Positions 34,201 through 38,128 of a stretch of DNA of 38,128 nucleotides are shown piece by piece. Every line of letters begins with the position of its first letter. Positions within the stretch are counted from its first letter, which is position 1. The DNA is taken from the NCBI GenBank assembly GCA_015487815.1, contig WFPA01000256.1:1-38128 (forward strand), read 5' to 3'. Made by a program: the position numbers and the translations under genes. The notes under the pieces are model-generated. The model was not told the DNA's origin and made no database searches. It worked only from the letters and a program-made list of their open reading frames with translations. The DNA comes from Albidovulum sp. (GTDB lineage: Bacteria > Pseudomonadota > Alphaproteobacteria > Rhodobacterales > Rhodobacteraceae).

Positions 34201-35640
34201 TCAGAGCCCCTTCGAGCGGTAGCTCAGGGCAATGCGTTCGATGGCGATGATATAGGCCGCCATGCGCAGATCGGGCACATCGCCGCGCCCGTGCCACAGA
34301 TCGCGCATGGCCTGGTAGGTGCCGCGCATGGTATCGTCGAGTCCCGATCGCACGAGCTCGAGTTCGTCCGCTCCCTTCAGGTAACGGCGGACGAAATCGT
34401 CGGAGAGGCCGGTTGCGAGCCCGGCTTCCGAGATGATCCGCTGCAGTTCGGCGACGAGCAGGGCGTGGCGCGCTTCTTCCTGACGGCGCTGGAGCCGGCC
34501 GAAGCGGATGCGCGAGAGGTTCTTCACCCATTCGAAGTAGGAGACGATCACCCCGCCGGCATTGGCGAAGAGATCGGGGATGATGACCTTGCCGCGGGAG
34601 CGCAGGATCTCGTCGGCGCCGGCGGTGATCGGACCGTTGGCGGCCTCGACGATGAGCGGTGCGCGGATCCGGTCGGCATTGGTCAGGTTGATGACCCCCT
34701 CGATCGCCGCCGGAATGAGGATGTCGCATTCGGCCTCGAGCGTGGCGAGCCCGTCCCTGACGAAGCGGCCGCCGGGGGCGCCCTTCACTCCGCCGGTTTC
34801 CCTCAGATGCGCGGCCACGGCCTCGACGTCGAGCCCTTCCCTTTCGCCTTCGGCGAGGATGGCGCCGTCGCGTTCGATGATGCCGATGATCCGCGCGCCC
34901 CCCTCCTCGGAGAGGAATTTCGCCGCGTGATAGCCGACATTGCCCAGGCCCTGGACGATGATCCGCTTGCCGGCAAGGCCGCCATCGAGCCCGGCCCTGG
35001 CCACGTCCTCGGGATGGCGGAAGAATTCCTGGAGCGCATAGAAGATGCCGCGGCCCGTGGCCTCGGTGCGGCCGTGAATGCCGCCCATGTGCAGCGGCTT
35101 GCCGGTCACGCAGGCCTCGGCGTGGATGTCGGTGGTATGCATGCGGCGATACTGGTCGGCAATCCAGGCCATTTCCCGCTCGGAAGTGCCCATGTCCGGG
35201 GCGGGCACGTTCTGGGACGGGTTGATGAGATCGCGCTTGATGAGCTCGTAGGCGAAGCGGCGGGTGATCTGTTCGAGCTGGTGCTCGGCATATTTCCTCG
35301 GGTCGATCCTGAGTCCGCCCTTCGAGCCGCCGAAGGGCACTTCGACGAGAGCGCACTTGTAACTCATCAGCGCCGCCAGCGCCTCGACCTCGTCCTGATT
35401 GACCGCGAGGGCGTAGCGGATGCCACCCTTCACCGGCTCCATGTGCTCCGAATGGATCGCCCTGTAACCGGTGAAGGTGCAGATCTCGCCGTCGAGCCGC
35501 ACGCCGAAACGCACGGTGTAGGTGGCATTGCAGACGCGGATCTTTTCCTTCAGGCCCGGAGAAAGGTCGATCAGCTGCGCCGCACGGCTGAAGATGAGAT
35601 CGACGGACTGGCGAAAGCTCGGCTCGACAGGAAGGCCCAT
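34201..35640 (-). CDS. Glu/Leu/Phe/Val-type dehydrogenase, probable glutamate dehydrogenase
   Basis: A 479-residue NAD(P)-dependent amino-acid dehydrogenase. The substrate side carries PVKGGIRY, YKCALVEVPFGGSKGGLRIDP with the catalytic lysine, and NVPAPDMGTSEREMAWI with the catalytic aspartate. The dinucleotide fold is GKRIIVQGLGNVGYHAAKFLSEEG, and IVEAANGPITAGADEIL with LFANAGGVIVSYFEWVKNL finish the family set. The WVKNLSRI segment and the length favour glutamate dehydrogenase over leucine or phenylalanine enzymes; cofactor not assigned. AAGGAG lies seven bases before the ATG. The upstream region carries a cluster of AAAAC repeats. Confidence 0.93.
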   Translation of the reverse strand: MGLPVEPSFRQSVDLIFSRAAQLIDLSPGLKEKIRVCNATYTVRFGVRLDGEICTFTGYRAIHSEHMEPVKGGIRYALAVNQDEVEALAALMSYKCALVEVPFGGSKGGLRIDPRKYAEHQLEQITRRFAYELIKRDLINPSQNVPAPDMGTSEREMAWIADQYRRMHTTDIHAEACVTGKPLHMGGIHGRTEATGRGIFYALQEFFRHPEDVARAGLDGGLAGKRIIVQGLGNVGYHAAKFLSEEGGARIIGIIERDGAILAEGEREGLDVEAVAAHLRETGGVKGAPGGRFVRDGLATLEAECDILIPAAIEGVINLTNADRIRAPLIVEAANGPITAGADEILRSRGKVIIPDLFANAGGVIVSYFEWVKNLSRIRFGRLQRRQEEARHALLVAELQRIISEAGLATGLSDDFVRRYLKGADELELVRSGLDDTMRGTYQAMRDLWHGRGDVPDLRMAAYIIAIERIALSYRSKGL

Positions 35641-35968
35641 GACGCGCTCCTTGGACTGGAAAGGGGCAAAACGGATGTTTTCAAAACCGATTCGGCGCCT
35701 GCGACGTTTTGTCCCTCATAGCGCATTGTCCGCGCATGTGAAGCCCAAAAGAAGCCGGCCCCGGCAAAGTTCCGCCGGCACGGGGAGAAATCACCAATCC
35801 GGCGTGATGGCGCCACATTCCCGCCCTCATCCGCCCCTCCAATAACGCAGGGCAGAATGCGATTCCCGCAGTCCGCGCCGACCGGCTCTCCGCAGAGGAA
35901 GCCGGTCAGCGAGGCAATGCCATGACCCGGTTCGGGTCTGGCGGCGCTCGATGCAAGCGGAGGGGCAG
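35641..35968. other. Divergent regulatory gap, dehydrogenase / VWA gene
   Basis: These 328 bases hold no gene I can support. The dehydrogenase ribosome site (35648-35653) and a cluster of CAAAAC/GTTTTG hexamers (35667-35711) occupy its left end. The rest, to the GGAGGGG ribosome site of the VWA gene, shows no clear promoter pair or hairpin beyond short GC-rich stems. Confidence 0.5.
35667..35711. repeat. AAAAC hexamer cluster upstream of the dehydrogenase
   Basis: CAAAAC at 35667-35672 and 35682-35687, GTTTTC at 35677-35682, and GTTTTG at 35706-35711. GTTTTCAAAAC (35677-35687) is a perfect odd-length palindrome. Four A/T hexamers in 45 bases are unusual in this GC-rich DNA and lie 27-71 bases before the dehydrogenase start, a place suited to an operator. 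Confidence 0.5.
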
Positions 35969-37444
35969 ATGAAAGGGCGTTCCTTGAAGGAAGCGGCCGC
36001 AAGGCGGGGCTGGGCGATCGGGCAGTCCGCCATCCGCCGCCGCCTGGTCCGGCGCCTGCGGGCGCGGCTCGCCGAGGAGGAGGGGTCGGTCCTGTCCTTC
36101 GCCATGATCCTTCTCATCGTCATGCTGATGGTTGGTGGCATGGCGGTGGACGTGATGCGCTACGAGAACACCCGCGCCGAGCTGCAATCCACCCTCGACC
36201 GGGCTGTTCTCGCCGCCGCCTCCCTCGACAACACCCTCGATCCCCGGGATGTGGTCAACAGTTACTTCGCCAAGTCCGGCCTCGAGGGCTACAGGCTGAG
36301 CGTCGATGTCTCCCAGGGCCTCAATTTCAAGACCGTGAAGGCGACGGCTTCGGCCCCGATGCCGTCCATGTTCCTCAACATGCTCGGGATCAACCGGCTG
36401 AAGGTGCAGGCGAAGGGCGGGGCCGAGGAGCGGATCAACAAGGTCGAGATTTCGCTCGTGCTCGACATTTCGGGCTCGATGCAGGGGCGCAAGCTCGAAC
36501 TGCTCAAGGATGCCGCCAAGGATTTCGTCGATTCGCTTCTCACCGAGCAGAGCCGCGACATGATCTCGATCACCATCGTGCCCTATTCGGGCCAGGTGAA
36601 TGCCGGCAAGATGCTCTTCGACGCGTTCAACGTGACGAAGAGCCATGACTATTCCTACTGCATCGAATTCGACAGCGACGAGTTCGGCGATGCCGCGCTC
36701 GACTTCGCCCGCGCACGCAAGCAGGTGCAGCATTTCGAATATTCTTCCTACTCGTATTCGCCGATCCGGAGGCCGGTCTGCCCCGCCGGGGAACAGAGCA
36801 CCGCCGGAGATGGTGCCGGAAACGAGAAATTCGCCATCACCGCCTTCGAGCAGGACAAGGCGACGCTGAAGGACAGGATCGACGAACTCGAGGCCATCAG
36901 CTCCACCGGCACGCAGTATGGCGTGAAATGGGGGCTCGGGCTTCTCGACCCGAGTGCGCGCGACGCGGTCGCGACACTTGTCCGGAACGGCAAGGCCGAT
37001 CCGGCCTTCATCGGCCGGCCGCTGGCCTGGGACGACCCGGAGACGCTCAAGGTGCTGATCGTGATGTCGGACGGCGAGAATACCGACCAGTATCGCATTT
37101 CGGACTGGGCCTATGACAGTTCCGAGGAAATCGAGCTGTGGAACGGCTCCACGCTCTGGCATTACCTCTACTACAATGTCTGGTATCCCTACTGGGGCTA
37201 TTTCTATCACCGGATCGTCCGGGCATCGCAGGCCGATGCCGACATGCTCAAGGCCTGTTCGGCGGCGAAGGAGAAGGGCGCGGTGGTCTTCACCATCGGT
37301 TTCGAGACCACGTCCCATTCGGCCGATGTTCTCGAAGAATGCGCCACCTCGCCGGCCCATTACTACGATGTGGACGGCATCGAGATCTCCGAGGCCTTCA
37401 GCGCCATCGCCGCCACCGTCCAGAAACTGAAACTGATCGAGTGA
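35969..37444 (+). CDS. Tad-type pilus-assembly-like protein with a von Willebrand A domain
   Basis: A 491-residue protein. A basic N terminus (residues 1-38) leads to one helix, VLSFAMILLIVMLMVGGMAVDV (41-62), preceded by EEEGS, like TadE/TadG pseudopilins. DVMRYENTRAELQSTLDRAVLAAASLDN follows, as in TadG. The von Willebrand A domain starts near 159 with the metal site D166-I-S-G-S170; D368 in VLIVMSDGENTD is the later metal-site residue. A loop at 391-413 has twelve Trp, Tyr or Phe residues. ATG 35969 has GGAGGGG six bases before it. It overlaps the next gene by one base (TGATG). Probably membrane-anchored with the domain outside. Confidence 0.86.
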   Translation: MKGRSLKEAAARRGWAIGQSAIRRRLVRRLRARLAEEEGSVLSFAMILLIVMLMVGGMAVDVMRYENTRAELQSTLDRAVLAAASLDNTLDPRDVVNSYFAKSGLEGYRLSVDVSQGLNFKTVKATASAPMPSMFLNMLGINRLKVQAKGGAEERINKVEISLVLDISGSMQGRKLELLKDAAKDFVDSLLTEQSRDMISITIVPYSGQVNAGKMLFDAFNVTKSHDYSYCIEFDSDEFGDAALDFARARKQVQHFEYSSYSYSPIRRPVCPAGEQSTAGDGAGNEKFAITAFEQDKATLKDRIDELEAISSTGTQYGVKWGLGLLDPSARDAVATLVRNGKADPAFIGRPLAWDDPETLKVLIVMSDGENTDQYRISDWAYDSSEEIELWNGSTLWHYLYYNVWYPYWGYFYHRIVRASQADADMLKACSAAKEKGAVVFTIGFETTSHSADVLEECATSPAHYYDVDGIEISEAFSAIAATVQKLKLIE

Positions 37445-38019
37445 TGGTCATGGCATGTGAAAGGGACAGGACGGGCAATGAAAGGCGTCGCGGCCTCTTG
37501 CGCCTTCTCGCCTGCCTCGCAGGGGAAAGGGGGGCAGCGACGATCGAATTCGCCATCATCTTCCCGGTTCTGTTCGCGGTCTTCGCCTCGACGCTCGAGC
37601 TCGGTATCTACCTCACGCGGCAGGTAATGCTCGATCGGGCCGTCGATCTCACCGTTCGCGCCATTCGTCTTTCGAGCAATCGCGACGCCATCACCCATGA
37701 TGCGGTGAAGCAGATGATCTGTGACAATATCGGCATCGTCAGCAACTGCACCCGTTCGGTGCGGGTGCGGCTCGATGTGGTCGATCCTGCCACCTGGCAG
37801 TTCCCGGACACGCCGGTGAGCTGCGTCGATCGGACGGCGAAGATCCAGCCGGTTGTCACCCTGACGCCCGGCAAGTCCGGCGACATCATGCTGATGTCGG
37901 TCTGTCTCGTGGTTGATCCGCTCCTGCCCGGCGCGACGCTGGGGTTGAGGCTCAAACAGGATGCCTCCGGCGGCGTGTATATCTACAGCCGCACCGCCTT
38001 CGTGAACGAGCCGGCATGA
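37444..38019 (+). CDS. TadE-like pseudopilin protein
   Basis: A 191-residue protein with the TadE prepilin motif: GERGAATIEFAIIFPVLFAVFASTLELGIYLTRQVMLDRAVDLTVRAIRL (about 27-76). The conserved Glu in TIEF sits near the start of the membrane helix, as in Flp/TadE proteins cut by a TadV-type peptidase. The rest is predicted extracytoplasmic, with four cysteines (ICDNIGIVSNCTRS, VSCVDR, VCLVVD) that may form disulfides. Its ATG overlaps the VWA stop in TGATG, so expression is coupled. Minor pilin or assembly scaffold, by family; no pilus ATPase or secretin is visible in this window. Confidence 0.85.
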   Translation: MVMACERDRTGNERRRGLLRLLACLAGERGAATIEFAIIFPVLFAVFASTLELGIYLTRQVMLDRAVDLTVRAIRLSSNRDAITHDAVKQMICDNIGIVSNCTRSVRVRLDVVDPATWQFPDTPVSCVDRTAKIQPVVTLTPGKSGDIMLMSVCLVVDPLLPGATLGLRLKQDASGGVYIYSRTAFVNEPA

Positions 38020-38032
38020 GGAGGGCAGGGAC

Positions 38033-38128
38033 ATGAGACGCATTCTCGCCAGCCTCGCGCGGTTCCGCCAGGATGTGAGCGCGGCCGTGTCGGTCGAGTT
38101 TCTCCTGGTGCTGCCGGTGCTGCTTGCC
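38033..38128 (+). CDS. Second TadE/TadG-like protein (partial, cut by window end)
   Basis: The first 32 residues are present: a basic start (MRRILASLARFRQDV) and SAAVSVEFLLVLPVLLA, the TadE-type motif with the key Glu before the hydrophobic run. GAGGAGGG lies shortly before the ATG, which begins 13 bases after the preceding stop. With the two genes before it, this makes a three-gene run of TadE/G-like proteins in one operon. The rest lies beyond the window. Confidence 0.75.
   Translation, partial: MRRILASLARFRQDVSAAVSVEFLLVLPVLLA

Follow-up and report, generated by a model that had tools for sequence, protein, structure and literature searches.

A predicted helical, aromatic-rich insertion with a variable patch in the von Willebrand A domain of a TadG/CpaL-like minor pilin

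The window (the whole 38,128-nucleotide stretch of DNA analysed here) encodes a 491-aa TadG/CpaL-like minor pilin with a von Willebrand A (VWA) domain (35969-37444, forward strand). Just past the third motif of its metal-binding MIDAS, this domain carries a 58-residue aromatic-rich insertion at the position of ARM2 in known pilus-tip adhesins. We favor, at roughly two chances in three, the interpretation that the protein is a Tad-pilus tip minor pilin of the TadG/CpaL type whose ARM2, beside the MIDAS, bears a variable contact patch. The pilin and the adjacent TadE-like pilins would jointly cap the Tad pilus, with the VWA domain displayed at its tip. In this view the aromatic segment forms the body of ARM2, inserted between strand β4 (which ends at D368-G369) and helix α4. 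A conserved aromatic and aliphatic frame of Y382, W391, Y399, L400, V404 and F412, with an aromatic residue at 413 in most homologues, would hold the three short helices together as a compact arm next to the MIDAS, and the third-helix segment 405-411 (WYPYWGY) would be the part most likely to meet a surface or ligand jointly with the metal. The tip location, adhesion and a shaping of the MIDAS cleft by the arm are suggested by analogy with PilB, CpaL and Mfa5.

The gene starts at an ATG (35969) preceded by GGAGGGG, with another in-frame ATG at 35951. The translated open reading frame matches Pfam Tad (PF13400, 7.2e-11, residues 39-85) and VWA (5.5e-11). The end of a class III prepilin-like leader (G39-SVLS-F44) and a long N-terminal helix were identified at 36083-36220 on the forward strand (model helix 5-49, which is 40-84 of the protein). 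The G-X4-F motif of this leader matches the pattern given for CpaL (PMC12607857). The MIDAS is complete (DxSxS, T, D), and its residues D166, S168, S170, T313 and D368 are invariant across 73 aligned homologues. Motif 1, D166-x-S168-x-S170, lies at 36464-36478 (in the aligned construct D131, S133 and S135), the candidate motif 2, T313 in TGTQYG, at 36905-36907 (T278), and motif 3, where D368-G369 closes β4, at 37070-37075 (D333 and G334, both invariant; model strand 324-332), all on the forward strand. The protein had earlier been described, from its sequence only, as an exported VWA protein of adhesin type, and its Tad/TadG-like character, pilin helix and complete MIDAS bear this out. Although sugar binding had been suggested in the sequence-only reading, no recognisable match to a carbohydrate-binding family was found in the protein with Pfam and NCBIfam. 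There is a weak match to NCBIfam NF050141 (the CLIBASIA_04065 family) at residues 423-470, far under the cut-off, which probably reflects merely common VWA C-terminal sequence. A second insertion, at the ARM1 position (residues ~222-285; 36632-36823, forward strand), was identified from the alignments and contains invariant Cys231 and Cys271 and the motifs HxYSxC and QxQHF. The VWA domain also has invariant Cys430 and Cys458, and the four cysteines could possibly form two disulfides.

The sequence-only reading had drawn attention to the aromatic residues of this protein, and its count is correct. Twelve of the 23 residues at 391-413 are Trp, Tyr or Phe (37139-37207, forward strand; translation WNGSTLWHYLYYNVWYPYWGYFY). 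This is the most aromatic 23-mer of the 491-aa product, the runner-up elsewhere in the protein having six. None of 20,000 shuffled versions of the protein matched this density, and any other ORF longer than 150 aa, in all frames of the window, reaches at most seven. The segment had been placed directly after the SDGENTD strand (residues 367-373). It does lie downstream of this metal-site strand, but it begins 18 residues past D373 and is thus in the middle, not at the start, of the insertion (residues 372-429; 37082-37255, forward strand). Two near relatives retain the aromatics of the segment, with the sole exception of a Tyr-to-Asn change in one of them (L003).

An AlphaFold2 prediction made with the 73 aligned sequences as input (model m8b323663c7eb; overall pLDDT 92.9, pTM 0.84) places the insertion between model strand 324-332 (β4) and model helix 384-400, just past D368. 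The predicted order of ARM2 is a strand (374-377), three helices (385-393, 396-403 and 406-411) and a closing strand (413-417), with pLDDT values of 94-97 in its blocks and with α4 beginning at 419. The earlier term "loop" is therefore replaced by a strand-helix-helix-helix-strand module, and a floppy low-complexity loop is ruled out by the compact, high-confidence model and by column conservation. Since ARM2 is a folded mini-domain predicted with high confidence, several aromatics of the segment (W391, Y399 and F412) probably belong to its core. That ARM2 borders the MIDAS would follow from chain connectivity and from the parallel with Mfa5.

A Foldseek search of the PDB returned pilus-tip adhesins as the best structural matches: SpaC, Mfa5 (second-best), RrgA and GBS104. 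Mfa5 is also the best sequence-profile match (E 8.9e-15), with an alignment that spans the ARM2 insertion, whereas a single-sequence search of the PDB gave no match. The name ARM2 is used in Mfa5, RrgA and GBS104 for the insertion that separates strand 4 from helix 4, and in all three the MIDAS cleft is covered by a lid of extra loops (PMC7835359). Mfa5 of Porphyromonas gingivalis (6TNJ, 6TO1) is a VWA tip adhesin with its ARM2 insertion at the same site as in the window protein, but this ARM2 has 98 residues, is proline-rich and holds a calcium site, and the protein belongs to a type V fimbria and has no pilin helix. SpaC, RrgA and GBS104 share the VWA domain with MIDAS, and in RrgA and GBS104 also arms around it; they differ in being parts of Gram-positive sortase pili with Ig-like stalks, and RrgA and GBS104 have a 123-residue ARM2. 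PilB of Streptococcus sanguinis (7B7P, 7BA2), a structural match of a long-ARM2 relative, is a bimodular type IV minor pilin with a VWA domain and two arms around the metal-binding MIDAS (PMC8179133). Its second arm, however, is a four-stranded β-sheet, in contrast to the three short helices and two closing strands predicted for the window protein, and it belongs to a different pilus class from Tad.

CpaL and TadG have been proposed as minor pilins of the Tad tip and share with the window protein an N-terminal pilin-like module, a G-X4-F/E processing motif and a VWA domain with full MIDAS (PMC12607857, PMC12075869). CpaL of Caulobacter crescentus differs in having, at the ARM1 position, two β-barrel domains that point away from the MIDAS (PMC12607857), and the portions of its description available to us make no mention of an aromatic helical arm past the third MIDAS motif. 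Deletion of cpaL in Caulobacter increased rather than decreased surface attachment (PMC12607857); the principal role could therefore be something other than adhesion.

The ARM2 described here is not peculiar to the window. A relative is encoded in 316 of the 397 searched genomes of the window's family, and the named relatives belong to Rhodobacteraceae and Roseobacteraceae/Paracoccaceae in current taxonomy. Insert lengths in 130 aligned sequences fall mostly into two groups, of 56-60 residues (48 with exactly 58) and 103-180 residues. A homologous, aromatic-rich short ARM2 of 56-60 residues was identified in about 62 Rhodobacteraceae TadG homologues, and the longer type in 53. The aromatic fraction is 0.22 in the short-group insert and 0.18 in the long-group insert, compared with 0.07-0.08 in the remainder of the proteins. 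When both arms were left out of the columns used for tree building (by a quick method only), the short aromatic type grouped in a single cluster with moderate support (SH-aLRT 82), made up of 65 short and 2 intermediate rows (67 in all). Three sequences with inserts of 57-59 residues (L125, L126 and L132) were rejected as members, as they resemble the type in length only, have few aromatics and lie elsewhere in the tree. The segment had been thought atypical of TadG proteins, and its absence from close homologues had been considered. It is present in them, with similar aromatic content across a large Rhodobacteraceae subfamily, which rules out a lineage-specific oddity.

The long-ARM2 proteins, such as those of Ruegeria (L116) and Sediminimonas (L112), are TadG proteins of the same family as that of the window. 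A model of the Ruegeria protein has the same frame as the short type, from the first strand through the three helices to the last strand, and a β-sheet subdomain lies between the first strand and the first helix. Thus the long type, at 103-180 residues compared with 58 in the window, carries an extra subdomain in the modelled case. Of the 53 long inserts, 46 contain in the equivalent region a loose motif, [EDGQ]-[LVIM]-[WFY] (compare E389-L390-W391), which is only suggestive.

Column statistics from 65 rows with inserts of 56-60 residues (62 homologous, 3 not) separate a conserved frame from a variable part. R376 and Y382 are invariant and W occupies position 391 in 62 of the 65 rows. The aromatic share is 92% at 399, 95% at 412, 71% at 413 and 57% at 397. 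Five of the twelve aromatics of the segment (W391, W397, Y399, F412 and Y413) therefore belong to the family framework, and dozens of marine relatives retain the framework of the arm. The other seven (401, 402, 405, 406, 408, 409 and 411) are aromatic in just 6-31% of rows, and most of these seven fall within 405-411. Conversely, positions 394, 398, 403, 414 and 417 are usually aromatic in the family and non-aromatic in the window protein. These shares indicate that the aromatic total is a family trait and its distribution is lineage-specific.

The hypervariable part, by per-column entropy and in eight species pairs, is 405-411 (37181-37201, forward strand). Across the eight independent pairs this patch differs at 31 of 55 sites and the VWA core at 277 of 1509, a threefold faster divergence of the patch (Fisher p 9e-10, a value to be read with the caveat that sites inside one species pair are not strictly independent); the adjoining 412-418 differs at 9 of 57. 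The patch is identical in three near-relative sequences of the window's own genus, a point against the preferred reading, and in this genus pN/pS for the insertion is 0.16-0.38, a sign of purifying selection from small counts. The placement of ARM2 as in known pilus-tip adhesins and the hypervariability of 405-411 between species together make a role in binding or specificity, as proposed in the sequence-only reading, plausible.

These observations bear on three other explanations. ARM2 could be a structural or assembly element, whose aromatics serve as a core or as the contact face for TadE-like partner pilins of the tip complex and meet no outside ligand. The high pLDDT and the conservation of W391, Y399, L400, V404 and F412 suggest a packed core, the TadG and TadE genes adjoin, and TadEFG pilins have been modelled as tip complexes (PMC12075869). 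However, one would look for such an interface on the pilin module, yet ARM2 emerges at the MIDAS end of the VWA domain, and 405-411 evolves too quickly relative to the core to fit easily; we regard this explanation as unlikely, although it is the strongest of the three. It is less probable still that ARM2 is mainly a mechanosensing lid, which would cover the MIDAS, open under pilus tension and govern the response to a surface rather than specificity. The lid formed by the arms of Mfa5 (PMC7835359) and the proposal that CpaL is a mechanosensor (PMC12607857) speak for it, but a pure lid offers no cause for rapid change limited to 405-411. Functionless drift of the aromatic stretch in a tolerant surface loop is very improbable: it would fit the seven lineage-specific aromatics and the free variation of part of the insertion among species, but not an insert length held at 56-60 residues in about 62 homologues, the aromatic enrichment over the remainder of the protein (0.22 against 0.08), the nearly invariant W391, Y399 and F412 and invariant Y382 and R376, the low pN/pS or the confident predicted fold.

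The genomic context of the window protein is that of a Tad pilus. The next gene (37471-38019, forward strand) encodes a TadE-like minor pilin (Pfam TadE, 3.6e-10). It is followed by the start of a third pilin-like gene of TadE/F type, recognised from sequence (38034-38128, forward strand) and cut by the contig end; this gene is complete in the relative L003 (3571-4122), where it has no Pfam match. Homologues of both downstream genes occur close to TadG in 104 loci. Elsewhere in the window's genome, contig C139 encodes a Tad ATPase and two T2SSF (TadB/TadC-type) proteins, and the single congeneric relative, G001, has genes for CpaB, a pilus secretin, an AAA/TadZ-like protein and the ATPase in a row. 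PF04964 identified no Flp major pilin in the window's genome (G000), in G001 or in three of the four further family genomes tried, and a Flp-query search of the window's genome, which is in 304 contigs, gave only weak candidates (E ~0.01). The lack of a PF04964 match weighs against the preferred reading. The major pilin may be divergent.

Upstream, a Glu/Leu/Phe/Val dehydrogenase gene (Pfam; 34201-35640, reverse strand) adjoins and diverges from tadG. Across many Rhodobacteraceae this arrangement recurs in 68 homologues, of which 41 are of the short type and 27 of the long type, the long type thus often sharing the chromosomal site of the window gene, and so both ARM2 types look like occupants of one ancestral site. 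More speculatively, and in our view doubtfully, the Rhodobacteraceae ARM2 could serve as a specificity cassette of the Tad tip, in which a constant aromatic frame carries either a small hypervariable helical patch (short type) or a β-sheet subdomain (long type); as both types occur at this dehydrogenase-side site, lineages might have swapped or remodelled their tips to suit different surfaces, for example those of algal partners.

The combination of pilin, VWA domain and arms is already known. We found no description in the open-licence literature of an ARM2 that is helical, rich in aromatics and fixed in length and that bears a fast-changing patch, nor any ligand test or tip localisation for a homologue with a short aromatic ARM2. 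Many members of the Roseobacter group have Tad pili, for which a link to life on phytoplankton has been reported (PMC8383342); a literature search found nothing on surface choice by Roseobacter Tad pilus tips. The seven-residue patch, set in a conserved frame and, by analogy, beside a metal site, provides a concrete testable site that may decide what the pilus adheres to, and the family is big enough for the patch to be compared with host or surface preference.

A second gdh-tadG-tadE copy is present in the window's genome on contig C137 (L002, 3552 bp), with 91% protein identity to window positions 34201-38128. It was rejected as a paralogue; given that it has the same neighbours and stops at the gene position where the window contig also stops, it looks like a co-binned near relative that breaks the assembly. 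Two to three TadG paralogues per genome were identified in other members of the family (L032, L033, L060 and L050; genomes G250, G319, G291 and G393). Some are in tandem and some differ in ARM2 length, and these paralogues may be a counterpart to the exchangeable tips described for the Kil pilus of Myxococcus (PMC12075869).
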